Positions 6,988 to 54,968 of a DNA stretch of 64,000 nucleotides are shown here, one piece after another. Source of the DNA: Candidatus Melainabacteria bacterium. Lineage in GTDB: Bacteria > Cyanobacteriota > Vampirovibrionia > Obscuribacterales > Obscuribacteraceae. The notes under the pieces were generated by a model. That model worked only from the letters and a program-made list of their open reading frames with translations. It made no database searches and was not told the origin of the DNA. The DNA is taken from the NCBI GenBank assembly GCA_003963305.1, contig RXJR01000028.1, positions 248,001-312,000 of the forward strand, in the 5' to 3' direction. A program made the translations under genes and the position numbers. How positions within the stretch are numbered: position 1 is the stretch's first letter; each line of letters begins with the position of its first letter.

Positions 6988-8001
6988 GTGAAAAGTATAG
7001 TAATCAATAAAGCAAGTGACATGCATGTTCATCTTCGACAGAATGAGATGCTTCACAACGTTTTACCGCACACGGCACTGCAGTGCTCAAGAGCACTTGT
7101 GATGCCAAATACGATACCACCGGTATTGACATCAGATGATGTTGCAAATTATCGCCAAGCAATCATGAAGAACCTACGCAGCGGAGAAGATTTCACTCCC
7201 TTGATGACATTCAAGGTATCGCCAACAACTGCTGCATCGTCTATCAAAGAGTTGAAACAACAGGGAGCGGTTGCAGGCAAACTATACCCAGAGGGTGTCA
7301 CTACAAATTCAGAAGGCGGCGTCACAGACTTCGAAGCACTCTATCCCGTCTACGAAGCAATGCAGAATGAAGGGCTCGTCCTCTGCCTGCATGGAGAGAT
7401 GCCTGGTGTTTTCTCACTAGACCGAGAAACTAGCTTCCTGGCAGTTTTGGAGGACATCGTTAGTTCGTTCCCAGATCTGAGAATTGTGCTGGAACATGCA
7501 ACCACCGCAGCCGCCATTCAGTGCGTCGAATCCATGCCTGAGAATGTCGCTGCAACTTTGACAGTCCATCACTTATATCTGACCTTAGATGACGTAATTG
7601 GCGACAGACTAAATCCGCACGTATTTTGCAAACCAATTGCAAAACGTCCAGAAGATCGAGCCGCACTGGTCGCAGCAGCGATGAGCGGCAAATCGAAATT
7701 CTTTCTGGGATCTGACAGTGCACCACATCAAATTTCGGCAAAGGAATGTGCATGCGGAGCGGCAGGCGTCTATACCGCGCCTGTGCTGTTACCAGCATTG
7801 TGCGAATTGTTTGACCGACACAACAAGTTGGAGTTTCTTGAGTCATTCACATCCGGCTTCGCGACTGATTTTTATAAGCTTGCCGAAGAAACTCAAAAAA
7901 TCGAATTAGTTGAAGAGAGATGGACTGTTCCTGAAGAATATCAAGGCGTTAAACCATTTCTGGCAGGAACCGAACTTAAATGGAAAGTCGCAGACCGCTA
8001 G
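6988..8001 (+). CDS. pyrC: Dihydroorotase, class II (PyrC)
   Basis: Catalyses reversible cyclisation of carbamoyl-aspartate to dihydroorotate, the third step of pyrimidine synthesis, in the cytoplasm. The 337-residue length fits class II enzymes of about 345 residues. Metal-site motifs appear in order: DMHVHLR near residue 11, the carboxylated-Lys motif AGKLYPEGVTTNSEGGV near residue 97, LHGE near 135, LEHATT near 165 and GSDSAPH near 245. The start is GTG. It has its own TATAAT-like box, and the neighbours are unrelated, so it looks like a single-gene unit closed by the hairpin at 8154. Confidence 0.96.
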   Translation: MKSIVINKASDMHVHLRQNEMLHNVLPHTALQCSRALVMPNTIPPVLTSDDVANYRQAIMKNLRSGEDFTPLMTFKVSPTTAASSIKELKQQGAVAGKLYPEGVTTNSEGGVTDFEALYPVYEAMQNEGLVLCLHGEMPGVFSLDRETSFLAVLEDIVSSFPDLRIVLEHATTAAAIQCVESMPENVAATLTVHHLYLTLDDVIGDRLNPHVFCKPIAKRPEDRAALVAAAMSGKSKFFLGSDSAPHQISAKECACGAAGVYTAPVLLPALCELFDRHNKLEFLESFTSGFATDFYKLAEETQKIELVEERWTVPEEYQGVKPFLAGTELKWKVADR

Positions 8002-8153
8002 CATAATAACCTTCATGCCAGCGAACCTCCACCACGTGAACAATCATGCACGACAGCAATAGAAGTAGACCGGTCGTCTACCAATTGCAAGAAAAAAAAT
8101 GTTCCCGGACTTAGCGTTGGGAAACTGCGACAAGAGAGATCCGTTCGTTAGAC

Positions 8154-8184
8154 CAGAGGCGCCACAGTAACTGCGGCGCCTCTG
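8154..8184 (+). terminator. Rho-independent terminator of pyrC
   Basis: A perfect 10-bp stem (CAGAGGCGCC / GGCGCCTCTG) with a nested CAGT/ACTG inner stem, followed on the plus strand by AAATTTTTCC. It separates pyrC from the convergent gene ending at 8215 and marks the change from plus-strand, AT-richer genes to the long minus-strand block. Confidence 0.8.
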
Positions 8185-8214
8185 AAATTTTTCCTCCAGT
8201 TTCGACATATGCCA

Positions 8215-8763
8215 CTATTGATCGGCGTCCAGTCTGACGGTCCGAAACAAGGGCAACTCACGCTCATGCTGCCAACCCCAACTGTCGCAGAGCGCCAAGT
8301 AAACCAGACTCGCCAGCACCCACGCGATTATCGAAAAAAGCATGACAGATCCAAGGGGCGCGAAGCCGAACCACCAGGCGACGAGCGCCGGCAGTCCAAC
8401 GACCATCGACCAGGGAATGAACTCCGCCAGAAAGGCAGTCAGCCTGGAGCCGCACACAGCCTCTTCCAAAAGCGCATGAACACAGCGATGAAAAGCATTT
8501 CCCCGGGGCAATACAATCCTGTAACGGAAGCTGAGCTTGTAAGCATCAACCATGTCATTCCAGCACAAGAACACGATCTCCAGCACGACATACAGAAGGA
8601 GAATTATCTGCGCCTGCAGCAGAAAGAGAATCCCATTCACCGGAACAGGAGCAGCCAGGCGAAGGAAAACCAGCGTGGTCAGCGCACCCATAGCGACAGC
8701 GCTGCGGACCAACGGACGTGAAAAAATGGCGCAGAGAGACTTGAGCGTAAGAAGGTTGGACAT
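8215..8763 (-). CDS. Membrane protein, four predicted helices (182 aa)
   Basis: GAAGGA lies 7 bases before the ATG at 8763. A TTG at 8778 would extend it but has no ribosome site. Hydrophobic segments lie at about residues 20-40 (SAVAMGALTTLVFLRLA), 45-65 (GILFLLQAQIILLLYVVLEI), 110-130 (PWSMVVGLPALVAWWFGF) and 135-155 (MLFSIIAWVLASLVYLAL). No transport or enzyme motif is visible. The next upstream gene is PBP4, separated by 106 bases containing an imperfect hairpin (8815-8853). Confidence 0.75.
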   Translation of the reverse strand: MSNLLTLKSLCAIFSRPLVRSAVAMGALTTLVFLRLAAPVPVNGILFLLQAQIILLLYVVLEIVFLCWNDMVDAYKLSFRYRIVLPRGNAFHRCVHALLEEAVCGSRLTAFLAEFIPWSMVVGLPALVAWWFGFAPLGSVMLFSIIAWVLASLVYLALCDSWGWQHERELPLFRTVRLDADQ

Positions 8764-34793: not shown

Positions 34794-37136
34794 TCAGACT
34801 CGGAAGGCCTGAGCCGACGTTTCATCGCCCACGAAATACTCCGAGGCTTCGAACTCGTCAACCTGGATGGCCGTCTCCATCCAGTCGTAAGCGGCATTCA
34901 GCTGGGACGCTTCCAAAACATTGATCACGCCCAGTTTGGCAGCCCGCTCGATCAAAGCCGGACGGATATCGCCTTTCGGCAAGACCCCCTTCTTCTGAGC
35001 CTTGCTCAGTTTGGCAGCGGCGCCCCGAGCTTCCGTTTCGACTTCGAAAGCTCTGAGCAAAACGCCAAGACCAAGCGCGCTTCCCGGCGGCTGGTAGACA
35101 TATTCGCTCAGTCGCAGGAACTGATCGTTGTATGTCTGCATGGTCGCCGCCGCCGCCTTCTTCTGACGGTCAGTCGGACCGACCGACAGAGTATTGAGGC
35201 GCAGCATCGGCAAGCCGACCTTGCGCATCAACCAGCCGACCACGGGCACTTCGAAGTTGGCGTAGATGCCCTCGAAAGCCCGCTGCACCTGCTGCAAAGC
35301 GTATTCGACCGCGTATTCGACGAGCGGAAGATCTTCTTCACGACGCCCTTCGCGTTCGAAACGCAGCAAGGCAAACTTCGCCCAGAGAATCCAACCGAAC
35401 GCGTCGGTGAATCGCCCGGAGAGCATGCCCTTGACCTTGAGCTTGGGACCCATGGTCAGCAGCGTGCGGTCGATGAGCATGCCGAAGCGCGTCGTAGCCC
35501 AGTCCAGTCGACGATAGAAATCGACAGTCTCGGGTGCGACGTTCTCAGGCTTCGCGCTCGCCAGACCGACAGTCAAGTCGCGGGCCAGGCAGCGTCCTGC
35601 GCCCACCGCAGCATGGCCTAGCCAGGCGGCGAACTCGGTGCAGAACTGATTGGGAAGGTCCTGTTCCAGAGCCGTCAGCACATCGAGCGCGTACGGATGG
35701 CAGCGGGTCGCTCCCTGACCGGTAGTGAGCATGGTGCGCGTCATGATGCTGGCGCCTTCGACCGTCTTGCCGACCGGCAAAGATCCATACATGCGTCCGA
35801 GGATGTTCCGCGGTCCCTGCATCACTGCAGCACCCGCGAAGATGTCCATGCCTGCGATGACCACTTCGGCGCCGAGCTCGGTCGAAAACAGCTTGAGCGC
35901 GCCTGATATCACAGGCGGTGCAATGCCGGAATCGATGAGCGAGCAGACGCCAATGCGAGCCGCTTCCATCATGTAAGTAATGCCGTTGATGTGGGCGAGC
36001 TTCTCGATAATGCCCTCCATCTTGCCGATCGGCATGGCGAACTGCCGCCGCACCATGGAATAGGCGTTGGCGGAAGCGGCCGTCAAGAGCATGCCGCCCA
36101 GAGCGCCCGCCGGCAGCGAGATAGCGCGACCGCCAGCCAGCTGCTGCATGAGCATCTGCCATCCCCGCCCGGCGCCATCGACACCGCCGATGATGTCATT
36201 GACGGGCATGATCACGTTCGTGCCGGTGAGAGGCCCATTGAAGAAGCCGTCACCGATCGGAATGTGATGCTTGCCCTGCGTGAACCCGGGCGTTCCCCTC
36301 CACAAAAGTCCGCAAGTGACGCCGATGTCTGTGACCGGTTCACCATCTGCGTCTTTCCGACCGAGCAAGTGCTCGGGGTCGAAGAGCTGGAAGGAGAGCG
36401 TTGTGATGTCGGCGACCGGGCCCAGCGTCATGTAGCGCTTTCTGAAGTTGAGCCGCACTGCCAGCGTCTCGTCAGCCTGGCGAAACACCACACCCGAAGC
36501 CTCGATGTTGGCCGCATCGGAGCCATTCTTCGGTTCGGTCAGACCGAAACATGGGACAAGCTCTCCGGTGGCGAGCTTCCGAAGCAGCTTCTTCTGTTCG
36601 GACGTGCCGTAGTGCTTGATCAACTCCGCCGCCGACAGCGAGTTGGCGATCGTGATGTAGGTGCTGACTGCGGCTGAAACCTGACCGACCATGGTCAGAA
36701 CAGTCGAGATAGCGAGCCAGGAGAAGCCCAGACCACCATCAGCTTGGGGAATCAAGAGACCCATGAAGCCCTGCTGGTGAATGAAGTCGATGACCTTCTT
36801 CGGCACTCGCCGCGTCTGATGAATTTTCCAGGCGTCGACCATGCGACACAGATCCTTGCAGGGTCCGTTGATGAACGCCGCCTCACGATCGGTGAGACCA
36901 TTGAAAGGCAACGCCGAGTAAGCCCTCCAGTCAATCTTGCTGCCGAAGAGACCGCCGTCGATCGAAACATCGCCTGCCTGCAGCGCCAATCGTTCGCTGT
37001 CCGAGATGCTCGGCATGGGGAAAAACTTGAGCGCAAGCTGCATGACAGCCCCGCTCGGTCGTCCACGCAGAAGCTCGCTCAGAACCGTCTTCTTCACCTT
37101 CCTGGAGCCGCGACCGGCTTTCGTTTCTACACTCAT
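34794..37136 (-). CDS. fadE: Acyl-CoA dehydrogenase, long FadE type
   Basis: An FAD enzyme for the first step of beta-oxidation. The 780 residues are about twice a normal acyl-CoA dehydrogenase and match E. coli FadE (814). The core has GFMGLLIPQADGGLGFSWLA, the flavin-binding CFGLTEPKNGSDAANIEASG and a C-terminal helical half with GLMR-type and ALARDL-like segments (VGAGRCLARDLTVGLASAKP). GGGAG lies 6 bases before the ATG at 37136. The next genes upstream are FadB-like and thiolase, so the three core steps of fatty-acid degradation lie in a row. Confidence 0.92.
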   Translation of the reverse strand: MSVETKAGRGSRKVKKTVLSELLRGRPSGAVMQLALKFFPMPSISDSERLALQAGDVSIDGGLFGSKIDWRAYSALPFNGLTDREAAFINGPCKDLCRMVDAWKIHQTRRVPKKVIDFIHQQGFMGLLIPQADGGLGFSWLAISTVLTMVGQVSAAVSTYITIANSLSAAELIKHYGTSEQKKLLRKLATGELVPCFGLTEPKNGSDAANIEASGVVFRQADETLAVRLNFRKRYMTLGPVADITTLSFQLFDPEHLLGRKDADGEPVTDIGVTCGLLWRGTPGFTQGKHHIPIGDGFFNGPLTGTNVIMPVNDIIGGVDGAGRGWQMLMQQLAGGRAISLPAGALGGMLLTAASANAYSMVRRQFAMPIGKMEGIIEKLAHINGITYMMEAARIGVCSLIDSGIAPPVISGALKLFSTELGAEVVIAGMDIFAGAAVMQGPRNILGRMYGSLPVGKTVEGASIMTRTMLTTGQGATRCHPYALDVLTALEQDLPNQFCTEFAAWLGHAAVGAGRCLARDLTVGLASAKPENVAPETVDFYRRLDWATTRFGMLIDRTLLTMGPKLKVKGMLSGRFTDAFGWILWAKFALLRFEREGRREEDLPLVEYAVEYALQQVQRAFEGIYANFEVPVVGWLMRKVGLPMLRLNTLSVGPTDRQKKAAAATMQTYNDQFLRLSEYVYQPPGSALGLGVLLRAFEVETEARGAAAKLSKAQKKGVLPKGDIRPALIERAAKLGVINVLEASQLNAAYDWMETAIQVDEFEASEYFVGDETSAQAFRV

Positions 37137-37198
37137 TTCTGTCTCCCTTATCTGGAGGTGAGCAAGCAAGACCATCTCGCTGTGCTCAAAAATATTGC

Positions 37199-37222
37199 CG
37201 TGTGGGCTCGAAAGTCCACACG
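37199..37222 (-). terminator. Probable terminator after the FadB-like gene
   Basis: A 7-bp stem CGTGTGG/CCACACG with a 10-base loop, followed on the minus strand by GCAATATTTTTGAG. It lies 41 bases after the FadB stop. Confidence 0.55.
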
Positions 37223-37263
37223 ACTTAGCGTTATTCAGCGCACCATGACAGAGGCAGAAGAGG

Positions 37264-39864
37264 CTACGCCTGCTTCTTGTCGTTGACCTCGATCAAGAGC
37301 TCGGCAGCCTCAGCCTGCCGCTGCACCTCGAAGTAGTGCGCCCAGTTCGTCGGATCGTCCAGCTTGATGTCTTCGCCGTTGCGCTCATAGAGACGCAGCA
37401 GTTCGGACGGCTGGAAGTTCTTGCGCCAGGTCTCCGGGCCGGCGCTGGCGATGATGCGGCTGAGTCCGGCGAAGACCCGCACGCCCTGCGCATTGAGGTA
37501 GCCAATCGGTCCGCCCCAGACGCCGGTCAAACCGGTGCCAAGAACGAACGCAGCGTCGCCATAAATGCGGTGCTCGGGCGCCACCACATTTTCTTCGATG
37601 ACACGCACCGCTTCATTGGCGATTGCGCCAAGAAGCAGAGTCTGAATGGCCTCACGCGAGAACGACTTGTTCTCGCCCAGACCAGGGAAAGCCGCCTTCA
37701 ACGCGGGGTTGATAATCAGCTTGCCCTTCTTGTCGCGCGCCTGCTTGCCCTTCTCCCAGACGTAAATACCACGCCCGGTCTTCTCGCCGAGATCGCCCAG
37801 CTCGAGGAGAATTTTGAGCACATTGCGCCCGTCTTCCGGCAACGCCATGCGATCGCCAAGCGCCTCATGAAGAGTCCTGGCGACGCTCGCCACGATATCG
37901 GCGCCGACCTTATCGAGCAGCGCCGCCGGTCCCATGGGAGCGCCGGAGTGCTTGATTGCCTTGTCGATTTCGTCCGGAGGAACGCCCTCGGCAAGCAAGT
38001 GGGCCAGTATGACGAGATACGGACCAAGCTCGCGATTGAGCTTGAAGCCGCGCATGTTGAACACCGGCAGCGGTGCCTTGTTCATGGCCGCGACCAGTTG
38101 CACGCCGACGGCCATGGTTTCGTCAGTGGTGGCAGCCGCGCGACCGACCTCGACCACATTCATTTGCTCGGGCGGATTGAAGAAGTGCAGCCCGCCAAAG
38201 CGCTGCGCCTGCTCTCCCAGGTCGCTCGCCAGAGAGTCGAGATCGAGCGCCGACGTATTGGTGAGCAAGAACCACGGGTTCTGATTGGTGCGCGACTTCA
38301 TGACCTCGACGATCTGGGCATAGCTGTTGCGCTTAAACCCCTCCTTTTCCGGCACAGCCTCAATGATCGCATCGCACTCGCGCAGTGCATCATAGTCGAG
38401 AGAGTAGACGATTTTCGCCATCGCCCGGAACTTCTCGTCTTCCGTCAGCCCGGACTTTACGAGATGCTTTTCGATGCGAACCATCGCATCGTTCAAGGCC
38501 TCTGCCTTGACGTCGATCAAGACAAGACTCTCGATGCTCTCGGACGCGGCCGCCAGAGCAGCTATGCCCGCACCCATCGGACCACCAGCTCCGACAATAG
38601 CGAGCTTCTTGATGGACGGCGCAACCACCCTGGCAAAGGCGTTTTTGGCGCCGCCCTTCTTGACGAAGAGCGAGACCAGCCCGCGCCCAAAGGGTGAACG
38701 AGCTTCCCTGGCGAACAGTTGCGATTCCAGACCCGAAGCCTCGGCGTCGGACAGGTCTCGCACCTGCATGATCAGACCGGCGACGCTTACCGGACCGCTC
38801 AGATTGCTCTTCGCCTTGATCTGCAGGACGATCGTCTGAGCCAGCCACTGCCGCATGGAAACGTCGAAGGACGCACCAATTGCGATGGCACCAGCCAGCA
38901 AGGCTGTGACGAAGATGTTCGGACCAACGAGCATCGTCGCAAGCCAGCCATAGGCATTCGGACCGCCGATGATTGTAGCCAGCACCTCATAGAAGATGCC
39001 GACGCCAATAAGCGTGGAGGCGAAGTGCTCCATGACACTCGGAGCCACCACATCCATGAGCACCTGACCACGCTTGCGACCGAAGAGTCCCTTCAGCTCG
39101 CGAGCGGTGCGCAGAGCGCGCCGCCACCTGGTCTGCTGCTGCAGAGACGCCTTGAGAATTTTCCTCCATGTAGGCGACTGCAAGCAGTAGTGTTCGGCGC
39201 TCGCCATCATCTGCTCATAGCTGCCGCAAAGCCCGTCGATCAAGCCCATCTCCTGAGCCTCAACAGCCTTCAGGCGCTTGAACCCGGCCACGAACTCGAC
39301 CGCATCGGTCAGACGCGCCATCCGCTGAGCGACATGAATGCTGCCCTTGAACCCGGGAATGAGCCCGACCAGACATTCCGGCAGCTGCACGGCACTCATC
39401 TGCTCGCTGCCGCTGATGCCGAGAATGTGATTGCAGAAAAGCGCCATCTCGAAACCGCCGCCCTTCCACTCGCCATTGATAGCAGCGACCGTGGGGAAAG
39501 GCATGTTGCTGAGGCGACCGAGAATGCGCTTCGCTTCTTCTGTGACCTTGACGAATGCATTGACGTCAGGATCATGCTGCAGGCGGTGGATCTCCTTGAT
39601 GTCGGCGCCTGCAATACCGGGCTTCTCGAAGGGCGTGCTGACGATCAGACCGCGACAATCACGGTCCTGCGCAATCACATCCAGGATGCGATTCAGGTCA
39701 TAGAGAGTGGCCGGCTGAATGGTGTTCACCGGTCCGGGAGAGTTGAGAAGCAGCGTGTAAACGCCCTTCGAGCTGCGGCTCAAGTTGAAGACTACGCTGT
39801 CGCGAACGACAAGCGGGGTAACTTCCTGACCGCGCGAGCCGAAACCGAAATTTCTCTTTGTCAT
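37264..39864 (-). CDS. fadB: FadB/FadJ-like enoyl-CoA hydratase / 3-hydroxyacyl-CoA dehydrogenase
   Basis: A two-domain beta-oxidation enzyme of 866 residues; E. coli FadB has 729. The crotonase domain (about 20-230) has GIAGADIKEI and INGEWKGGGFEMALFCNHIL. The dehydrogenase domain starts at about 420 with AIVGAGGPMGAGIAALAA, then GGLHFFNPPEQMNVVEVGRA and the C-terminal helical region. Between them, about 280-340, lies an insertion with two hydrophobic segments (IGVGIFYEVLATIIG and IFVTALLAGAIAIGASF). This is unusual for a soluble enzyme and may anchor it to membrane. GAGGAAT precedes the ATG. Confidence 0.92.
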   Translation of the reverse strand: MTKRNFGFGSRGQEVTPLVVRDSVVFNLSRSSKGVYTLLLNSPGPVNTIQPATLYDLNRILDVIAQDRDCRGLIVSTPFEKPGIAGADIKEIHRLQHDPDVNAFVKVTEEAKRILGRLSNMPFPTVAAINGEWKGGGFEMALFCNHILGISGSEQMSAVQLPECLVGLIPGFKGSIHVAQRMARLTDAVEFVAGFKRLKAVEAQEMGLIDGLCGSYEQMMASAEHYCLQSPTWRKILKASLQQQTRWRRALRTARELKGLFGRKRGQVLMDVVAPSVMEHFASTLIGVGIFYEVLATIIGGPNAYGWLATMLVGPNIFVTALLAGAIAIGASFDVSMRQWLAQTIVLQIKAKSNLSGPVSVAGLIMQVRDLSDAEASGLESQLFAREARSPFGRGLVSLFVKKGGAKNAFARVVAPSIKKLAIVGAGGPMGAGIAALAAASESIESLVLIDVKAEALNDAMVRIEKHLVKSGLTEDEKFRAMAKIVYSLDYDALRECDAIIEAVPEKEGFKRNSYAQIVEVMKSRTNQNPWFLLTNTSALDLDSLASDLGEQAQRFGGLHFFNPPEQMNVVEVGRAAATTDETMAVGVQLVAAMNKAPLPVFNMRGFKLNRELGPYLVILAHLLAEGVPPDEIDKAIKHSGAPMGPAALLDKVGADIVASVARTLHEALGDRMALPEDGRNVLKILLELGDLGEKTGRGIYVWEKGKQARDKKGKLIINPALKAAFPGLGENKSFSREAIQTLLLGAIANEAVRVIEENVVAPEHRIYGDAAFVLGTGLTGVWGGPIGYLNAQGVRVFAGLSRIIASAGPETWRKNFQPSELLRLYERNGEDIKLDDPTNWAHYFEVQRQAEAAELLIEVNDKKQA

Positions 39865-39919
39865 AGATTCCTCACGTTGTTGTGGCGTCTGCGCCTGGTA
39901 GTCGACAGTTCGACATCAG

Positions 39920-39946
39920 CCGGTCAGCAGGATGCTGTCCGACCGG
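39920..39946. other. Hairpin in the thiolase-FadB spacer
   Basis: CCGGTC pairs with GACCGG and an inner AGC with GCT. It lies 24 bases after the thiolase stop and 56 bases before the FadB start. There is no clear T-run. Confidence 0.45.
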
Positions 39947-39969
39947 TTCTTCTTGATGCGCTCAGACCC

Positions 39970-41262
39970 TCAATCGGGTTCGTAGCGCTTGACGAGAACG
40001 GCAGTGCCCATGCCCCCGGCAGCGCATTGCGTGCCCAGGGCATATTCCATGCCAGGCTCGTGACGCCGCAAATAAACTTCGCGAGCGATCATGCCGAGCA
40101 AGCGCGCTCCGGTGGCGCCGAGCGGATGCCCGATCGAGATGCCGCCGCCATAGAGATTGGACTTGTTCACGTCGATGCCGAGCACCTTCATGATCGCCGC
40201 CCAGATATGCGCGAAAGCTTCATTGATCTCCCAGTAGCCGATATTCGAGACGCTCATGTGGCGCCGCGCTAAAAGCCGCTGAACAGCAGGAACAGGACCC
40301 AGCCCCATTGTCATGGCGTCGCATCCAGCCGCTTCGAAGTCGACGACTTCAGCGAGGATGGTGGCGCCGAGCTTGATAGCAGCTTCTTCGCTGGCGAGCA
40401 CCACAGCGACGCCGCAACCGCCCATGCCGGAGGCATTGGCAGCCGTGACGAGACCGCCCGTGTCAGGCAGCGCCCGCAAGCCGGCCACCTTTTCGAGAGT
40501 GGTGGCGCGCGGACCCTCGTCTTCGGTGACAAGACCGACACCCGGCACGAGGAAGGGAGCGATCTCGAGCGCCATACGTTCGCGACCGGCGAGCGCCCGC
40601 TCATGCGACAGAACTGCAAGCGCATCAGCGTCGCCCCGTTTGATGCCGCAAAGATTGGACACCGTCTGAGCAGTCTTGGCCATGCCGGCACGTCGCGGAT
40701 CGATAGCGTTCAGCGAAGTAGCAAGACCGCTCTCGCCGTAGGCGCCGAAGACCAGACCGGGACCGTAGTGCTTGCCGAAGCCGAACATCGTCAGCCATTT
40801 GCCCCACGGTTTTGTCGTCACATTGCGCAGCCTGCGATTGAAGCCTGAATTGCGCACTGAACTCGGCACCAGATAGGATGTGTCGGCCATGCTCTCGGCA
40901 CCGGCAGCGATACCGATCTCGATGTATCCCTCGTTAATCTGTCTGAAGATTTCACGAGAAGCATCCATGCTCGACGAGCACTGGCGGTTGATGGTCAGAC
41001 AGTGGGTACTGTCTTTCAGACCACCGGCTTCTGCCGCGTGCTTGGCGAAGTTGCTCGTGAACGCATCCTGAGCCACCTGCCCAGCCGCCAGAGCGCCAAT
41101 TTTGCTGACATCAATGATGCCCGCTTCGGCGATGGCCGCCCGCACAGCCTCGCCCACCAGATCTTTGGCCGAAACCTGCCGCGCCATGCTCAGGCTGGGA
41201 GTGCGCTTGCAGGCGATGACGACAACGCGCCGCCTTTTGAACTGCTTCTTTGATTCTGACAT
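39970..41262 (-). CDS. fadA: Acetyl-CoA acyltransferase (thiolase)
   Basis: Cleaves 3-ketoacyl-CoA to acetyl-CoA and shortened acyl-CoA. The 430-residue protein carries the acylated Cys in TINRQCSSSMDASREI near residue 95, the EINEAFAH motif, the His in GGGISIGHPLGATGARL and the second Cys in ALGTQCAAGGMGTAVLV. GGAGG lies 6 bases before the ATG at 41262. The open frame extends to 41397, but only through spacer hairpins. It is a FadI-like longer thiolase and completes beta-oxidation with the FadB- and FadE-like genes downstream. Confidence 0.95.
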   Translation of the reverse strand: MSESKKQFKRRRVVVIACKRTPSLSMARQVSAKDLVGEAVRAAIAEAGIIDVSKIGALAAGQVAQDAFTSNFAKHAAEAGGLKDSTHCLTINRQCSSSMDASREIFRQINEGYIEIGIAAGAESMADTSYLVPSSVRNSGFNRRLRNVTTKPWGKWLTMFGFGKHYGPGLVFGAYGESGLATSLNAIDPRRAGMAKTAQTVSNLCGIKRGDADALAVLSHERALAGRERMALEIAPFLVPGVGLVTEDEGPRATTLEKVAGLRALPDTGGLVTAANASGMGGCGVAVVLASEEAAIKLGATILAEVVDFEAAGCDAMTMGLGPVPAVQRLLARRHMSVSNIGYWEINEAFAHIWAAIMKVLGIDVNKSNLYGGGISIGHPLGATGARLLGMIAREVYLRRHEPGMEYALGTQCAAGGMGTAVLVKRYEPD

Positions 41263-41310
41263 TTCGGTCCTCCAAGTTCGATTAGCGATGACGACACGCC
41301 ACCGCATGTG

Positions 41311-41341
41311 GTTCGGCAGGGGATTGACTCCCTTGCCGAAC
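41311..41341. other. Long hairpin in the ClpP-thiolase spacer
   Basis: GTTCGGCA pairs with TGCCGAAC, then after one mismatch GGGA with TCCC (minus strand), giving about 12 bp. A second hairpin follows at about 41350-41371 (GCACGCCGCAGTGCGGTGGTGC on the minus strand, in part). Both lie in the 180-base spacer before the thiolase start, with no T-run. Confidence 0.5.
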
Positions 41342-41442
41342 CTGAGCGAGCACCACCGCACTGCGGCGTGCATATGTACTATGCGGGGGCGAATCAACGC
41401 CTCCGCACAGCTCGTTCAACCGTCCTGACCGGGACAATGACG

Positions 41443-42102
41443 TCAGTCGCGAATAATGTCGACCAGCCCCTTCGGACCATAGTCTTTCGCTTGCTGAGCC
41501 GACAACCAGGTGTCCTTCTCCATATCCTTACGAACTTCGTCGTACGGCTTGCCCGAATGGAGCGAGATGATCTCAGCCAGAGTGTGGGTACCGTGCTCCA
41601 GCTCGGCGTCGAGAATCCTCGAGTCCTCGCGCGTTAAGACGTTGCCGCCACCGCCATTGATGCGCGTCTGGTGGATCATCACCCGTCCGTGACGGTTGAT
41701 GCTCCGCATGCCATCAGTGCCGCAGCACAGGAGAATCGAACCCATGCTGGCCGCCATGCCATTGCAAGTGGTGGCAACCGGGAAGGACTTTTTCTCCTGT
41801 TGGATGCGGTCGTATATCGCCAGCCCATCAAGAACCACGCCGCCGGGAGTGTTGAGAAACAGGTGGCGGGGCTTCTTGAAATCGATGTGCCGTAGATATG
41901 CGAATTGCGCCGACACGGCTTTGTATGTCTCGCCGTCGATCGGACCGGTCAGATCGATCAGTCCCTCCTGTAGGAGCCAGGCGTAGGCGTCCATGGCTCG
42001 CTCACCACCGAGCGGGCCCTTGACGATGACCATGGGAGCGGAAGCCTTCTGGGGTTCGTCCCAGAAAGGATATTGGAAGCGGAGAGCAGAGTTAACAGGC
42101 AT
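41443..42102 (-). CDS. clpP: ClpP-like serine protease subunit
   Basis: The ATG at 42102 has AAGGGA 5-6 bases upstream and yields 219 residues. A 30-residue N-terminal extension precedes the ClpP fold (LIDLTGPIDGETYKAVSAQ). The catalytic Ser lies in CNGMAASMGSILL, the His in GRVMIHQTRINGG and the Asp in DMEKDTWLSAQQAKDYG, so the triad is intact. The N-terminal axial-loop region differs from housekeeping ClpP. It follows the ClpA-like gene by 157 bases. It is probably a paralogue serving that ATPase, and a second housekeeping clpP elsewhere is expected but not visible here. Confidence 0.92.
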   Translation of the reverse strand: MPVNSALRFQYPFWDEPQKASAPMVIVKGPLGGERAMDAYAWLLQEGLIDLTGPIDGETYKAVSAQFAYLRHIDFKKPRHLFLNTPGGVVLDGLAIYDRIQQEKKSFPVATTCNGMAASMGSILLCCGTDGMRSINRHGRVMIHQTRINGGGGNVLTREDSRILDAELEHGTHTLAEIISLHSGKPYDEVRKDMEKDTWLSAQQAKDYGPKGLVDIIRD

Positions 42103-42259
42103 GACATTCCCTTTTCTAGACTGTCGCGTGTTGAAGCACAGTCCCGTTGGAGTTTGCAGAAGTTTGAGCGGCGGCAGGGTGATATGTCTTCGTTCGTGCA
42201 GACGTTTAGATCGTGCACGCTGAGACCAGAGCACCCCGCCACCACTCGATTCAGAGGAG

Positions 42260-44815
42260 TCAGTCCTTGCGGAACTTGACGGTCGATCCTTCCAGATAAG
42301 CCGTCACGTTGTCGCCACGAACGAACTCATTGTCGAACACCCTTTCGGCAAGCGGCACGGTAAGATTATTCATTACCATGCGCTTGAGCTGACGGGCACC
42401 CAACTCTGAGCTGTAACCGCCCTTGGCCAGGAAGTCGATGACCGGTTTCTCAATCGTGAGATTGATGCCCCGCCCCTCGGCATCCGAGAGTTCCTTGACC
42501 AGAGGCGCCAGCTGCTTCTCGGTGATTCCGACAATATCAGTCGGAGTGAGCGGATGGAAGACGAGAATATCGTCAAGCCGATTGAGGAATTCCGGCGAGA
42601 AAGTCCGCCGGGCCGCAGAACGCACGCGTTCTTCAGCTGCTTCCCTGGTCTCGGATTCCGACTTCTCCGCCGTCACCGAATCGAACAACATCGCCTTTTC
42701 ACTGACTTCAAGTGCGCCGACGTTCGAAGTCATGATCAGGAGAACGTTGCGGTAGTCGATCGGACGACCGTGTCCGTCTTTCAGCCTGCCATAATCCATG
42801 ACCTGGAGAAGCAAGCTATAAAGATCCTGGTGAGCCTTCTCGATTTCGTCGAGCAGGAGCACCAGATAGGGACGACGGCGCACGGGCTCGGTGAGCGTGC
42901 CTTCCTGATCGTTGCCGACGTAAATCGGCACACCACCAGTCAGCTTGCCGATCGAGCTGGAGTTCTGGTATTCAGACATATCCAGACGCTCGAGTGTGAT
43001 ACCCAGAGCCTCAGCGATCTTCTGGGACCACCAGGTCTTCCCGGCGCCGGTCGGACCGAGAATCAAGATGCTGACAAGCGGCTGCTCGACCTTGAAAAGA
43101 TCGCGCGCTTTCAGCAACCCTGAAACGACTTTGGTGGCGTCCTGCCGGCCAACAACAGTCTCGTTGACCTTGGTGGGTAGGCTGAGCAAAATCTCTTGCG
43201 GCTGCTGGACCGGAATATCCCTTGATTCCGTCAGTTCCCGCTCGATTTCGTTCTTGTCGACGATGACCACTTCATCGTCTTGTTTCGGCGCTGCCTTTCC
43301 TTCAGTGCCGGCTGTCGCCGCAGCCTTCGCCTTCTGGATGAGTTCTTCCAGCTCAGCAACTCGCTCCTTGAATTGTGCGAGCTGAGCGACTTTCTGCGCA
43401 GAGTCCTTCTCCCGTTCCCACCAGAGAATTTCGAACTTCAGAGTGTTCAGCTCAGCTTGAGCCTCTTGCGCTTCCTCAGAACCGCCATCTTTCTTGAGCC
43501 GCTGCGTTGAAGACGCGCCGTCGATCAGTGTCAACGCCGCATCGATTACGCTGTATCCAAGCGGCTTCAGATAGCGGATGGCCAGATACACGGCTGCCGA
43601 AATCGCCGCATTGGTGATCTGCACACGATGGTGCTTCTCGAATCCAGCTCGCCGTCCGACCATGAAACGACGCAACTCCAGGTTGGTCGGCTCCGGCAGC
43701 TGAAGGTCCTGGAAGCGACGCTTCAGAGCCTTGTCAGACTCGATGTGCTTCAGGTATTCACTGTTCGTGGTGGCGCCAATCAGCGAAATCTCGCCATTTG
43801 CAAGGGCCGGCTTGAGAATGTTCGATGCATCCATCGCACCGTCTCTGGTGCCGCCGGCGCCCATGACCATGTGGAATTCGTCGATGAAGAGGATGATGCG
43901 CGGGTCTGACTTGAGCTCCTCGACCACCTTCTTCATACGCTCTTCGAATTCACCGCGGTATTTCGTGCCCGCCACCACATCGGCGATGTTGAGGTTGACG
44001 ACAATTTTGTCCTTCATGTCGTCAGGAACCCTGCCATCGGCGATGGCCTGGGCGAGAGCCTCGACGAGCACCGACTTGCCCACACCGCCCTCGCCGAGCA
44101 AGCAAGCATTTCGCTTCACCTTTCGACGCAAGATGGAAATCAGCCGAGCGACTTGCTTCTCACGGCCGATCACCGGTTCGAGTTTACCCTGCGCCGCCTT
44201 GAGAGTGAGATCGACACCGGGAATTTCAGAAGTCAGAAATACCGAATTTGACCTCAAGCGAGTCTTCATTGTCTGCTCCTTTCTGGGCACGAGACTTTTA
44301 CCCTCCTGGCCGCCCGGAATCGGGATGCCTTCATTGGTCACACGACCGGCATTTTTCGCGTCGATTTCATCGAGCGCGTCTTTGGCTTTCTGGATGCGCA
44401 GCAGTTGGTCCTTCACGCCCTGCGTCCAGTGGATGTTGTAATCCTCGGTGAACATCCGCGCGACGTGCGACTCTTGCACCTGCATCATGCCCATGAGCAG
44501 ATGAATCGGACGCACAAGCTGATCCTTGCCCGCCTCGAAGGCCGCCAGATCCAGTGCCGTGATCACGTTTCCTTCGCACGGCACATAAGCCTCGCCGACA
44601 TCAAAACCATCCGGCGGGGAAGGTGTCTCGTCGATCGTTTGCATGTCGACAGGTGTGTTGAAGATAAGCCATTCGCGCACGGCCGTATTCTGCTCTTTTG
44701 CCATGACCACGAACAGCATACCGAGCGAGATCGGCCTCTTGAAGTGAACTGCATATGCCGCAGCTTTCCTCATCAGCCGAGCCATTTCGGGATGATATTC
44801 CATCGCATACTCCAT
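42260..44815 (-). CDS. Clp AAA+ unfoldase (ClpA/ClpC-like)
   Basis: An ATP-driven unfoldase with two AAA+ modules, 851 residues. The N-terminal Clp repeat domain spans about 1-140 (ARLMRKAAAYAVHFKRPISL and VRPIHLLMGMMQVQESH). Module 1 has LLGEGGVGKSVLVEALAQ and IILFIDEFHMVMGAGG. A coiled linker with long helices (about 400-490) is shorter than the ClpB middle domain. Module 2 has LGPTGAGKTWWSQKIAEAL and VLLLDEIEKAHQDL. At the place of the ClpP-docking (I/V/L)G(F/L) loop it reads KAMLFDS. GGGAG precedes the ATG at 44815. A ClpP-like gene follows. Confidence 0.93.
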   Translation of the reverse strand: MEYAMEYHPEMARLMRKAAAYAVHFKRPISLGMLFVVMAKEQNTAVREWLIFNTPVDMQTIDETPSPPDGFDVGEAYVPCEGNVITALDLAAFEAGKDQLVRPIHLLMGMMQVQESHVARMFTEDYNIHWTQGVKDQLLRIQKAKDALDEIDAKNAGRVTNEGIPIPGGQEGKSLVPRKEQTMKTRLRSNSVFLTSEIPGVDLTLKAAQGKLEPVIGREKQVARLISILRRKVKRNACLLGEGGVGKSVLVEALAQAIADGRVPDDMKDKIVVNLNIADVVAGTKYRGEFEERMKKVVEELKSDPRIILFIDEFHMVMGAGGTRDGAMDASNILKPALANGEISLIGATTNSEYLKHIESDKALKRRFQDLQLPEPTNLELRRFMVGRRAGFEKHHRVQITNAAISAAVYLAIRYLKPLGYSVIDAALTLIDGASSTQRLKKDGGSEEAQEAQAELNTLKFEILWWEREKDSAQKVAQLAQFKERVAELEELIQKAKAAATAGTEGKAAPKQDDEVVIVDKNEIERELTESRDIPVQQPQEILLSLPTKVNETVVGRQDATKVVSGLLKARDLFKVEQPLVSILILGPTGAGKTWWSQKIAEALGITLERLDMSEYQNSSSIGKLTGGVPIYVGNDQEGTLTEPVRRRPYLVLLLDEIEKAHQDLYSLLLQVMDYGRLKDGHGRPIDYRNVLLIMTSNVGALEVSEKAMLFDSVTAEKSESETREAAEERVRSAARRTFSPEFLNRLDDILVFHPLTPTDIVGITEKQLAPLVKELSDAEGRGINLTIEKPVIDFLAKGGYSSELGARQLKRMVMNNLTVPLAERVFDNEFVRGDNVTAYLEGSTVKFRKD

Positions 44816-44881
44816 TTCAGTTGCTCCCACCGTTTCCGGCGAGAGTGGTGATATTGGTTTTGACCGATATGTTCGCTAGTT

Positions 44882-46741
44882 TCAGTCGTACATAGCGGCG
44901 ATTCGAGCTGCCTCCATTCTTTTCGAGAGCTTTGCGCTGATCTCGGTTTTGCCGGAAAGCAGACGGTTTTCGATCGACGGAGTGATTGGCACAATCGCAA
45001 ACTTGCGAATGCGCTTCCACTGCCCTTTAAGACCAATTCTCTCGTTGGCTCGATCGATTTCTGCTTGCACTTCAGACCTGATGATTGCGCTCTCAGTCAG
45101 GTCTTTCAACGAAAATTTCGCCGCATCTTCTCCTTTCTCGCAAACAAGCGCGCGCGCATTCGCTTCGTTGATGTAAACCAGCGCAGTCACGAAGGGACGC
45201 CCGATGAACGCCGGCACGATAAACTGAATCAGCCGACTTCCTTCGAACTCCTCGACGATTTCCTTGCTGGAAACTTTTTCAGCGTTGAACGTCTTGCCGT
45301 CTTCGCCAACTCGACCTTCGACGACCAGGCAGCCTTCTTCAAGGTGCCCGACGTCGCCTGTGTGGAAGGCACCATTGATGAATGACTGCGCAGTCAGAGC
45401 AGGGTCATTCCAATAGCCCGGTGACACCGTCGGACCGCCTATGACGATTTCGGTGCCATCGTCATCTTCGAGCGGCTTGAATGCGATCGTCACGCCTTCG
45501 AGCGGATCACCCGATGACCCGGGAACTTCCTTATGGACGTAGCCCACAGTGGAAGCACCCGTCGTCTCGGAAAGTCCATAGCCGGGGATGACCTTTTGCC
45601 GCAACACCTCGAGCTTGCGTGACAACTCCCGAGGGAATGCCGAACCACCCGTGATGCGCATGCGCAGACGCCCACCCAGCCCTCTATTGAGAGCCTTAGC
45701 AACAATGAAGTTGCAGACGCCATCGAGTGCGCTCCCGTCCGGTGCCAATGCTCGCCTCACAACTGCCGCCTTAACCCTGGCCAGCAGTTTGTTCGCAAGC
45801 GGTGCCTGCAACTCGTCCATGAGCATCGACCAGAGTTTGGTGACGCCCAGAAGCACCGTCGGACGCACACTGCGAATGTGCTTCTTCAGGTCGAGCGGAT
45901 GGCACAGAAACATCGTCACTCCGCACCAGAGCGCCGGTCCCTGCCCATTCCAGGCGAAGATGTGATTGGCCGGCAGCAGCCCGAAGTAGATGTCGTCGGA
46001 GCTAAGCGCAAAACGCTTCGGCACCGCGGCCGACATATGCGCCAGATTGCCGTGAGTGATCATGACAATCTTCGGATTGCCGGAGCTGCCTGACGTGGCA
46101 ACGAGCATGGCGACCCGATCGTGCACCAGATGTTCATAAGAACGACCCGATGTGTTGTGCAGATTGTTGAGCGCCTTAGCGACAGCTTCGCTCAACTGCA
46201 CAACTCGCACACCCGATCTGCCAAACTGATCGAGCTGAACCTTTCCGGACTGCTCATGGTCTTCACAGAAAACAACCTTGAGCGTGCTGCCGGAAAGCTC
46301 GGCGGGAGCATTGTCCGCCTGGTTGAGGATGTAGGATGTGCTCTCCGCCGTCAGGCGTGGATCGACACCAATGACGATACCACCGGCCGACCATGTAGCC
46401 AGAGCCAGCCACATCCATTCAGCCCTGTTCCACGAGACAATGCCGACTCTGTCGTTTGGCTTGACGCCATAGTCTCGCTCGAGCACGTAGGTCAGAGCCG
46501 CGACGATACGCGCAGTCTGTTCCCAGGTCACCCGTTCGTACGAGAACCGCTCCCTGCCGACAATCGGATGCCGCCAGGTGCTTTTTCTTCCCTCCGAATG
46601 CGGCACGATGAAGCCGACACCGTCAGGATTCTCCGTTGCGTGCAGCCAGAGGCGATGCAGCAGCGTTTCGTTCGGACCCGGCCCCGTCAACTGGCTTGCA
46701 AAGCCAGCGGAGCCAGGACCGGTAGCGCGTTTTGTGCCCAC
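44882..46741 (-). CDS. fadD: Long-chain acyl-CoA synthetase (AMP-forming)
   Basis: Activates fatty acids with ATP and CoA before beta-oxidation. Adenylate-forming signatures are present: AMLVATSGSSGNPKIVMITH (P-loop motif), GYGLSETTGASTVGY, and FHTGDVGHLEEGCLVVEGRV with the hinge. The lysine motif normally near the C-terminus is not obvious to me. The sequence there reads SIENRLLSGKTEIS. The GTG at 46741 lies 8 bases after AAGGAG. Another GTG at 46747 is only 2 bases away, so I prefer the former. A role with the neighbouring fadE, fadB and fadA genes is likely. Confidence 0.88.
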   Translation of the reverse strand: MGTKRATGPGSAGFASQLTGPGPNETLLHRLWLHATENPDGVGFIVPHSEGRKSTWRHPIVGRERFSYERVTWEQTARIVAALTYVLERDYGVKPNDRVGIVSWNRAEWMWLALATWSAGGIVIGVDPRLTAESTSYILNQADNAPAELSGSTLKVVFCEDHEQSGKVQLDQFGRSGVRVVQLSEAVAKALNNLHNTSGRSYEHLVHDRVAMLVATSGSSGNPKIVMITHGNLAHMSAAVPKRFALSSDDIYFGLLPANHIFAWNGQGPALWCGVTMFLCHPLDLKKHIRSVRPTVLLGVTKLWSMLMDELQAPLANKLLARVKAAVVRRALAPDGSALDGVCNFIVAKALNRGLGGRLRMRITGGSAFPRELSRKLEVLRQKVIPGYGLSETTGASTVGYVHKEVPGSSGDPLEGVTIAFKPLEDDDGTEIVIGGPTVSPGYWNDPALTAQSFINGAFHTGDVGHLEEGCLVVEGRVGEDGKTFNAEKVSSKEIVEEFEGSRLIQFIVPAFIGRPFVTALVYINEANARALVCEKGEDAAKFSLKDLTESAIIRSEVQAEIDRANERIGLKGQWKRIRKFAIVPITPSIENRLLSGKTEISAKLSKRMEAARIAAMYD

Positions 46742-46806
46742 GTACACTACTCCTTAGTTAGACGTGGAAGAAAGCGCCCGGATTCTTCAACCCGAACGCA
46801 GCTGGT

Positions 46807-52123: not shown

Positions 52124-52924
52124 TTACTTTTCGAGCAGCATTTTCAGCCGCGATTCTTGCTCATCGACAATCTTCTGCAGGTCCTTGACTTTGTCCTGAT
52201 TCGATTTGAGCGCAGCCGCTCGCACCGCTTCCGTGACCAGACCGAAGAACACTGCGAAGATACTCCAGCCGCCGAGCATGATAATCATGCCAACCCAGCG
52301 GCCGTGCATCGTATGTGGTGCGCTGTCATTCAGATTAGTTTTAGTAATCGTCGTGATTGCGTACCAGCAGGCATCCTGGAAGGTTGGGAAGGTCTGCGGT
52401 TCAACATAGACGAGCAGAGCACTGCACGACGTCACCAGCACGGTCGTCGCCACACCTGTGACGATGACCGGATGAGACGAGAAGCGCTGAGCCGTGAACC
52501 TGACTATCTTCCAGGCGTGTGCAGCTGTGCCGGTGAACTGAAGCGCATCCAGCGGCACAACCTTAGTTAGACTGAGCAAAGCTGCGAAGTCATCCAGCTT
52601 ACCCAGCTGCGACAGAGGCACCCAACAGACGCATACAACAAGCTCCGCCAGATGGAGCCAGATGTATCTGATTGGATGCCCGCCGAGAATCGCATAAGTC
52701 ACCGTGCTGCCGACGAAGGACAGCCAGATGACAATGCGAGTCCCGACTTGGAAATTTGACCAGGAAACCGAAAGAATCGGTACCTGCCAATCTCCGGTGA
52801 CGAACTGGCTCCCCACCACGAGAGCCATTGCCATAATCGACATGCAACTGAGCAAGAACTCAACTGTTGGTTCCGCCTTTCTGACAGTGTCGATTGATGG
52901 TCTGGTGAACATACTCCAGCCCAT
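52124..52924 (-). CDS. Channel-like membrane protein with altered K+ filter
   Basis: The ATG at 52924 has GAGG 7 bases upstream. The 266-residue protein has about six hydrophobic helices. Residues 180-235 match the pore module of two- or six-helix potassium channels (FQDACWYAITTIT, then MIIMLGGWSIFAVFFGLVTEAV). The selectivity filter, normally TTVGYGD, reads TKTNLND at 194-200, with only Thr and Asp kept. There is no Arg-rich S4. A C-terminal coiled coil (DKVKDLQKIVDEQESRLKML) may oligomerise it. It may be a non-selective or non-conducting relative. Assignment rests on the pore pattern only. Confidence 0.75.
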   Translation of the reverse strand: MGWSMFTRPSIDTVRKAEPTVEFLLSCMSIMAMALVVGSQFVTGDWQVPILSVSWSNFQVGTRIVIWLSFVGSTVTYAILGGHPIRYIWLHLAELVVCVCWVPLSQLGKLDDFAALLSLTKVVPLDALQFTGTAAHAWKIVRFTAQRFSSHPVIVTGVATTVLVTSCSALLVYVEPQTFPTFQDACWYAITTITKTNLNDSAPHTMHGRWVGMIIMLGGWSIFAVFFGLVTEAVRAAALKSNQDKVKDLQKIVDEQESRLKMLLEK

Positions 52925-52947
52925 GCGTTTTCCTCGATCTCCCAACC

Positions 52948-54186
52948 TCAGTTGGGCTTGCCCGGTTTGACCTCGATCAGTTCGACCTCGACAAATATCG
53001 GTGTCTCAATACCAAGGCCAGGTGACGGTGAAATTGTAAACACCCGCTTTCCGCCGACTCTCATGCCATTCACGCCCGCGCTACCGATCTCGACTTCGGA
53101 GGTGCGACCCAACCTGTGTGAGCTCTCGATAATACTGCCATCGTGTTTCCGCATAGTGCAGTGCACGACGGCAATCTGACCAGAACGCGCTTTGGCGCCC
53201 AGCCCGAGTTGTTCCTCGTGATACGAGTAGCCGAACGGTGGCTTAACTTCGCGCGACGGCGTGCCCAGGAAGTAGTCGGGAACGAGTTCCTCGCCCGGCA
53301 CACTGGCGAACTTCTCGAGGTCGTGAACGCCAGCAAGATGCATCACCTCTTCGTCGGTGACGAAGTTGCCAGAATACTCGACTGCCTGTGACAGAATCCA
53401 CACCGCCGCCTGAGCAACGATTTCTGTCGTTCGCGACCCCTTGACCATCGGCTTATCGAGCATCTGCTCGAGCATGCGAATCGCCGCCGTATCGATGGCA
53501 GTTGCCGGCCATAGACAGTTGACGCCGACCAATCCCTTGAACGTCTTGGCCAGACCGAGCGTGATCATGGACATGTTGTATTTCGAGATCGTGTAGGGCA
53601 GATGGTCCCTGAACCAGTAGGGATCCAGGTTGAGGGGCGGCGACATGGTCAGAATCCGCCCGCCTGACTTGACGAGATGCGGCAGCGCGAACTTGCACGC
53701 CCACAGTGTGCCGAAGTAATTGACTTCGGTGATCAGCCGCACCTGCTTGGGTGTGATCTGATCAATCGGCAGCGGCGCAAGAGCGCTGGCGTTGTTGATC
53801 AAGAAGTCAATGCGACCGAAACGTTCGACCGCAGCAGCGACGGCTTGCTCCACCTGTTTCTCATCGCGGACGTCACAGCGGAAAGCCATCGCTTCGCCGC
53901 CGAGAGCCTCGATTCTGGCAACGGTTTCGTCGATCGAACCTTCGAGCTTTTTGCCGCCGCCCGTCTTGCCCCACATGGCGAAGGTGATGAGCGGATGGCG
54001 AAGCATCTTGATCGCCTTGCGATAACGGCGGCTAACGCCAGCCCAGAAGCCGGTCGACTCCTGCACCGTCTTGCCGAGCGCAACGATTTTGACGCCCTGA
54101 CGCGCCAGGTCTTCGGCAATGGCAAGACCAATGCCGCGGCTGGCGCCGGTGATTACCGCCACTTTTCCTTTGAGATCTTTCGTCAT
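52948..54186 (-). CDS. SDR oxidoreductase fused to an FKBP-like domain
   Basis: Residues 1-300 form a short-chain dehydrogenase like HSDL2: GKVAVITGASRGIGLAIAED (NADP loop), LINNASALAPL and the catalytic Tyr-x3-Lys in YTISKYNMS. After a linker, residues about 335-410 align with FKBP prolyl isomerases: SGQIAVVHCTMRKHDGSIIE, then NGMRVGGKRVFTISPSPGLG and IFVEVELIEVK. The FKBP Tyr of HYTG is Cys and the pocket Trp is not seen, so isomerase activity is doubtful. The SDR part may act on acyl-CoA or sterol-like substrates. It precedes the channel-like gene by 23 bases. Confidence 0.88.
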   Translation of the reverse strand: MTKDLKGKVAVITGASRGIGLAIAEDLARQGVKIVALGKTVQESTGFWAGVSRRYRKAIKMLRHPLITFAMWGKTGGGKKLEGSIDETVARIEALGGEAMAFRCDVRDEKQVEQAVAAAVERFGRIDFLINNASALAPLPIDQITPKQVRLITEVNYFGTLWACKFALPHLVKSGGRILTMSPPLNLDPYWFRDHLPYTISKYNMSMITLGLAKTFKGLVGVNCLWPATAIDTAAIRMLEQMLDKPMVKGSRTTEIVAQAAVWILSQAVEYSGNFVTDEEVMHLAGVHDLEKFASVPGEELVPDYFLGTPSREVKPPFGYSYHEEQLGLGAKARSGQIAVVHCTMRKHDGSIIESSHRLGRTSEVEIGSAGVNGMRVGGKRVFTISPSPGLGIETPIFVEVELIEVKPGKPN

Positions 54187-54346: not shown

Positions 54347-54859
54347 TCAGCTATCCCAGCCGAAAAAGTTCTGGATCTTCCAGAGCCACAGCGGCTTGAT
54401 GATGAATTCGGCTTCGATTTCCACGGCGATGCCGAAGGGAAGCGATGCCATGCTGACAGCGCTGCGAGTGCCGATGCCGTTTTCCGGACCGAAGACCTCG
54501 AGCATCAGCTGCGAAAAGCCATCGATGACGGCCGGCTGATCTGCGAAATCAGGCGTTGAATTTACCATGCCCAGAGCCTTGACTATGCCAATCAACCGCT
54601 CGATTCCGACTTCATGATCGATGGTTGACAGAATGCCGATTCCAACGAGCCGTGCTGCGTCCTGTCCCTGAATTATGGACAGATCTTTGCCAAGCTTCCC
54701 TTTGATTGCTGTGGCTGGATCGCTCCAGGGTCCATGCCCGGAGACTAAGAGCCGACTGGAAAACAGTCCCTCGACGATCCTGGTTCCCGCATAGAGCCCG
54801 ACGGCCCTTTTCGGAGCATTCAAAAGAATGCCCTTTTGTGCCAACTGCTGCCTATTCAT
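54347..54859 (-). CDS. RidA/YjgF-family protein
   Basis: The ATG at 54859 has GAAGGA upstream and yields 170 residues. MNRQQLAQKGILLNAPKRAV opens a RidA-like chorismate-mutase fold. LFSSRLLVSGHGPWSDP, DAARLVGIGILSTIDHEVG and FGPENGIGTRSAVSMASLPF follow the family's order. The Arg in GTRSAV fits the substrate-binding Arg of RidA. Members deaminate reactive enamine/imine intermediates or have other small-molecule roles. This longer type (YjgF/XdhC-like about 150-170 residues) is less studied. It lies between a 36-residue basic protein and the SDR-FKBP gene. Confidence 0.88.
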   Translation of the reverse strand: MNRQQLAQKGILLNAPKRAVGLYAGTRIVEGLFSSRLLVSGHGPWSDPATAIKGKLGKDLSIIQGQDAARLVGIGILSTIDHEVGIERLIGIVKALGMVNSTPDFADQPAVIDGFSQLMLEVFGPENGIGTRSAVSMASLPFGIAVEIEAEFIIKPLWLWKIQNFFGWDS

Positions 54860-54968
54860 GACCTTATTCCTTCGCTGGAGTTCTAAATGTGCCGACCAGT
54901 GCACAAACTGAACACGACTGAAGCCTGACGAGTTACTTTGGCTTCAGCCTGACACTCAGAAGCTTGAC

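Follow-up and report, generated by a model that had tools for sequence, protein, structure and literature searches.

Peroxisomal MFE-2 is a multidomain protein made up of a short-chain dehydrogenase (SDR), a hydratase and an SCP2 domain. Human HSDL2, which represents a conserved enzyme type, carries SCP2 as the C-terminal partner of its SDR, and its endogenous ligand in humans is still unknown (PMC11141617). In most bacterial relatives seen, nothing follows the SDR at the C-terminus. The gene described here encodes an SDR of the HSDL2/PRK08278 type, continued in the same frame by an FKBP domain. The encoded protein resembles the HSDL2/PRK08278 proteins (NF006133) in the SDR core, the SPPLN motif region, the YxxxK site and the C-terminal segment, and differs from them by a 34-residue insertion after strand 2. 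With MFE-2 it shares the location of a putative lipid SDR within a multidomain chain, while the SDR subfamily and the partner domains are different. The domain arrangement is new, the enzyme type known; so far, it is a single, uncharacterised protein design.

The gene is located on the minus strand of the window, i.e. the whole stretch of 64,000 nucleotides analysed, and its features are reported in Table 1, along with the neighboring genes relevant to its interpretation. The original prediction, which described an SDR fused to an FKBP-like domain, was confirmed: an open reading frame of 412 residues is found at the positions given, and the fusion is correct in sequence and in predicted fold. 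The frame runs uninterrupted from ATG to TGA. Codon log-odds in the annotated frame are +0.35 for the SDR part, +0.42 for the insertion and +0.18 for the FKBP part, as compared to -0.55 and -0.32 for the FKBP part in the two shifted frames; together with GC content by codon position, these values reveal coding character in one frame through all three parts. As the codons favour the frame of the SDR all along the tail, down to the end of the gene, a frameshift within the gene, or a tail read in the wrong frame, was rejected.

Table 1. Features of the fusion gene and of its neighborhood. Coordinates refer to the window; residue numbers refer to the encoded protein.
Feature	Coordinates	Strand	Evidence or remark
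SDR-FKBP fusion gene, 412 aa	52948..54186	-	single open frame, ATG start
SDR domain, HSDL2/PRK08278 type, residues 1-309	53260..54186	-	NF006133, 3kvo, TM of model
TGASRGIG cofactor motif, residues 13-20	54127..54150	-	nearly invariant in alignment of relatives
Insertion of 34 residues after second strand, residues 45-78	53953..54054	-	alignment with relatives
YTISK catalytic motif, Y198 and K202	53581..53595	-	invariant in alignment of relatives
Degenerate FKBP domain, residues 316-407	52966..53241	-	Pfam, phmmer, hhalign, model
Cys343, at the FKBP12 Tyr26 position	53158..53160	-	alignment with FKBPs
Ion_trans_2 channel-like protein	52124..52945	-	starts 2 bases after the fusion stop
YjgF-like protein, 185 aa, upstream	54347..54904	-	PF14588, 34.9 bits, just under the cut-off of 35
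Acyl-CoA dehydrogenase, FadE type	34794..37175	-	NF007000, 718 bits
Enoyl-CoA hydratase / 3-hydroxyacyl-CoA dehydrogenase, FadB-like, 866 aa	37264..39864	-	ECH_1 and 3HCDH
Acetyl-CoA C-acyltransferase (thiolase)	39970..41397	-	TIGR01930, 277 bits
AMP-binding acyl-CoA ligase	44882..46747	-	PF00501, 186 bits

The SDR part scores 115.5 bits against the Pfam adh_short model and 286.2 bits against the curated NF006133 model (PRK08278), for which the cut-off is 250, and belongs to the HSDL2/PRK08278 group. Its best PDB relative is human HSDL2 (3kvo, E 4.9e-59), which is also one of the three nearest solved structures, along with 3e03 and 3sc4, both bacterial; comparison of the predicted SDR model with 3kvo gave a TM score of 0.93, by target length. 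In the alignment with relatives, residues G14, G18, G20, N156, S182, Y198 and K202 are invariant. The complete SDR with NADP loop and YxxxK site that had been originally reported was recovered, with its glycine motif and with S182, Y198 and K202; its identity as an SDR stood, while the HSDL2 type had been missing. The gene product, a member of the HSDL2 subfamily, is predicted to be an oxidoreductase that depends on NADP(H). Searching the fusion protein against Pfam revealed no SCP2 domain and, in its place, FKBP_C. The SDR is placed, with some uncertainty, on a long tree branch (2.42, as compared to a median of 0.24), a length compatible with either a foreign origin or fast evolution.

Genes of fadE, fadB and fadA type and an acyl-CoA ligase gene are found on the same strand as the fusion gene, 6-19 kb away from it. 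Within positions 34794-46747 of the window, the FadE-type, FadB-like and thiolase genes are followed by those for ClpP and a Clp ATPase, and then by the ligase gene. Similarly, plasmid relatives of the SDR adjoin AMP-binding or acyl-CoA dehydrogenase genes. Because of these two contexts, an acyl-CoA or lipid substrate is favoured. HSDL2-type SDR genes, closely alike among themselves, were also seen on several IMG/VR contigs (L076-L082), where they may represent either an auxiliary gene or cellular contamination.

Within the same family of genomes, SDRs of this type usually end where the FKBP part starts here. In five cases (L011, L013, L022, L029, L035), an HSDL2-type SDR is followed by a linker and a C-terminal crotonase, in proteins of 584-635 aa; the crotonase (ECH_1) was confirmed by Pfam in L011 (L011:1363-3147) and in L022, and is given as read for the others. 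The two confirmed proteins share with the fusion both the SDR type and the presence of an added C-terminal domain, and differ from it in that the added domain is an enoyl-CoA hydratase/isomerase, located behind a long linker. The HSDL2-type SDR thus accepts varied C-terminal partners.

The insertion is missing from all the HSDL2-type relatives aligned. It consists of a predicted cationic amphipathic helix, followed by a hydrophobic stretch; its segment RRYRKAIKMLR is the most amphipathic one, with the highest helical moment of the whole protein, and residues 43-82 carry a net charge of +7. In the full-length model, most of the insertion has a pLDDT below 50. Contact of the insertion with lipid or membrane is suggested by its composition. 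The original prediction included neither the insertion, nor the crotonase fusions of relatives, nor the foreign composition of the DNA described below.

The C-terminal 111 residues, used as a query, matched PF00254 with 26.2 bits (E 1e-5; gathering score 21.1), which establishes FKBP homology. A phmmer comparison with the FKBPs of the PDB gave an E value of about 1e-5, and hhalign against FKBPs gave a probability of 98% (E 2.6e-13) over 92 columns at 37% identity; a chance similarity of the tail to FKBPs was rejected on the basis of these three scores. The match covers the complete domain, residues 316-407, including its first strand: the alignment to FKBP previously noted was confirmed as homology, and its extent, given as about 75 residues, was corrected to the whole domain. 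The strand quoted as VVHYTG corresponds to the consensus letters of the family, while the gene itself reads VVHCTM.

The SDR and FKBP parts were modelled with separate alignments, because a joint MAFFT alignment misplaced FKBP fragments. The model of the tail, for which the FKBP alignment was the input, so that agreement in fold partly depends on homology, has a mean pLDDT of 77, with 81-89 over most strands, and matches 4dz2/4dz3 with a Z score of 14.4 and an rmsd of 2.0 over 96 residues. In the full-length model, which contained no FKBP rows, the tail is mostly below pLDDT 50, and its strand order is, with low confidence, the same as in FKBP. The structure prediction and fold comparison originally proposed as a check thus returned an FKBP-like tail, as judged from the model, and the tail is regarded as an FKBP by descent and by predicted fold. 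It resembles the FKBP isomerases (PF00254; Burkholderia FKBP 4dz2/2y78) in homology over the whole domain and in predicted fold, and differs from them in the pocket residues, all of which are changed or deleted, and in the loss of a helix segment and of the 80s loop.

Thirteen pocket positions, in FKBP12 numbering, were checked, 20 FKBPs of related genomes serving as the comparison set. All of them are altered, eight by substitution (Y26C, F36I, D37E, R42L, F46S, F48V, Y82L, F99V) and five by deletion (V55, I56, W59, I90, I91). None of the isomerase pocket residues Y26, F36, D37, F46, V55, I56, W59, Y82 and F99 is kept in the tail. The replacement of the active-site Tyr by Cys and the absence of the pocket Trp, both noticed earlier, are part of this pattern. 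The deletions relative to the 20 FKBPs are two, both in frame, of about 8 and 10 residues; the helix segment VIKGWD is lost in this way, as is the 80s loop. Among the conserved positions that can still be aligned, those of the pocket are kept in 0 of 8 cases versus 23 of 43 elsewhere (Fisher p 0.006), and the structural glycines and the VGGKR strand are retained despite the loss of the pocket. Such a concentration of changes fits a directed loss of the pocket. Since all 13 positions are lost, the tail is very probably devoid of prolyl isomerase activity, and FK506 binding by it is unlikely. The same substitutions and deletions make it unlikely that the ligand pocket of the FKBP part could host a hydrophobic ligand beside the SDR site; the other role suggested for it, in dimerisation or docking, is possible.

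The fusion was searched for in several collections. It was not found in 60 relatives by using the tail as a query, nor in 50 genomes of the family by an FKBP_C search; the other FKBP frames detected in these 50 genomes, of at least 440 aa, are of a length consistent with trigger factor, an identification by size. The search of related genomes suggested in the original prediction, performed by using the junction as a query, returned no fusion in 53 genomes of the order; with an E cut-off as strict as 1e-62, no second fusion was found among 386 phylum genomes. Among the plasmid matches listed, none extends through the FKBP part. The fusion was found neither in viral contigs nor by an 8-mer scan, of low sensitivity, of genome contigs from about 85,000 species. 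In addition, an SDR-FKBP protein was not found in the open-access papers searched, which weakly supports the earlier statement that no such fusion is known to be described. The standalone FKBP of the same genome is 39% identical to the tail, which is not a copy of it.

An explanation may be proposed which combines these findings, and which we consider to have about an even chance of being right. The substrate of an HSDL2-subfamily oxidoreductase, dependent on NADP(H), would be either lipid-derived or an acyl-CoA; an entire FKBP domain would have been joined in frame directly behind the conserved C-terminal segment of the SDR, and would have lost its pocket through the two in-frame deletions and the substitution of the pocket aromatics. 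The FKBP domain would now be a non-catalytic module, occupying the place taken by SCP2 in eukaryotic HSDL2 or by crotonase in the HSDL2-type SDRs of other genomes. Its likeliest role would be packing or docking, either as an oligomer contact or in the recruitment of a partner or membrane near the SDR active site, while the insertion that follows strand 2, cationic and hydrophobic, may add a contact with acyl chains or membrane. The single occurrence of the fusion counts against this explanation, as do tail substitutions barely more conservative than expected from drift.

These points also sustain the main alternative, considered rather unlikely, that the FKBP part is a decaying or neutral tail, produced by a chance fusion harmless to the SDR and having no role of its own; the two deletions, the loss of all pocket residues and a codon score half as high as in the SDR agree with it as well. 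In order to evaluate selection, unconstrained drift was simulated from each of the 20 FKBPs down to the observed identity. On average, about 4-6 stops appeared in the simulated sequences, and the frame stayed open in about 0-5% of the runs, typically 1-2%, whereas that of the tail is intact, both its deletions being multiples of three. The observed substitutions are about one standard deviation more conservative in chemistry than simulated drift (BLOSUM z 0.1-1.7), and the hydrophobicity pattern of the tail does not differ from it. These results argue with moderate force for a maintained frame, hint at a maintained fold and, as a whole, weakly suggest selection on the FKBP part. The survival of structural glycines and of the VGGKR strand while the pocket is gone, and a confident FKBP-like model over most strands, also speak against a neutral tail.

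The FKBP part could otherwise be a new ligand-binding or regulatory domain, such as a lipid or acyl-chain binder feeding the SDR, a role attributed to SCP2 in HSDL2. It has the same position as SCP2 in HSDL2 (PMC11141617); moreover, the loss is not evenly spread but centred on the old pocket, and beta-oxidation genes are close. However, the usual FKBP cavity has been removed, and a single occurrence provides no relatives able to reveal conserved new residues, so that this possibility is judged improbable.

The DNA surrounding the gene differs from the rest of the genome. In the contig (G000:C28, 352 kb), GC content rises from 47-50% to 57% at about C28:256 kb, corresponding to about position 8,000 of the window, and from there to the contig end the tetranucleotide signature lies twice as far from that of the remaining genome. 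The distinct stretch is about 96 kb long; the break, at about 8001-8215 of the window, falls between a dihydroorotase-like ORF, assigned by eye and ending at 8001, and the next ORF, which begins at 8215. For genes past the break, genus mates offer distant matches at best, and 16 kb compared with these mates for synteny yielded only one match, of 179 bases. No tRNA was found in the window or in the other stretches scanned, and no integrase was seen among the annotated ORFs of the stretch; the contamination recorded for the genome is 4.7%. The stretch is either a chimeric contig or a large island. While the host genome is tentatively assigned, from its kin, to Obscuribacterales (non-photosynthetic Cyanobacteriota), the fusion gene may derive from another lineage. 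Because of the break, all findings within positions 8,000-64,000 share a doubt on origin; similarly, since the gene is possibly foreign, its absence from the order says little about its true relatives, which may lie outside the genomes examined. An assembly or sequencing artefact joining two genes, although conceivable in a contig with so sharp a break, is very improbable, as the gene lies 45 kb from it, its two parts share frame, codon bias and GC, the join introduces neither a stop nor a frame change, and the tail is too diverged from the standalone FKBP to be a copy.

That a former prolyl isomerase domain was rebuilt as a working non-catalytic partner, either ligand carrier or docking part, of an HSDL2-type lipid dehydrogenase, in an arrangement not described before, is a tentative and doubtful proposition. 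If the FKBP tail works, it would be a case of an isomerase fold taken over for a purely structural or binding function. The location of this bacterial FKBP form beside beta-oxidation genes and the crotonase-fused forms point to a shared acyl-CoA chemistry; with one occurrence, in DNA of uncertain origin, the claim is modest.

Peptidase genes of the S9, M24, M3 and M48 types are found near the fusion gene, on the same strand. They are part of an unusually dense, one-strand series extending over positions 16000-64000 of the window and beyond, which includes S41, an M16 pair, M3, M48, S9, M24, rhomboid, M1 and M41 types. In addition, an ORF at 5419-6843 of the window, on the plus strand, contains repeated PAKAEAPVKPE units near its C-terminus.
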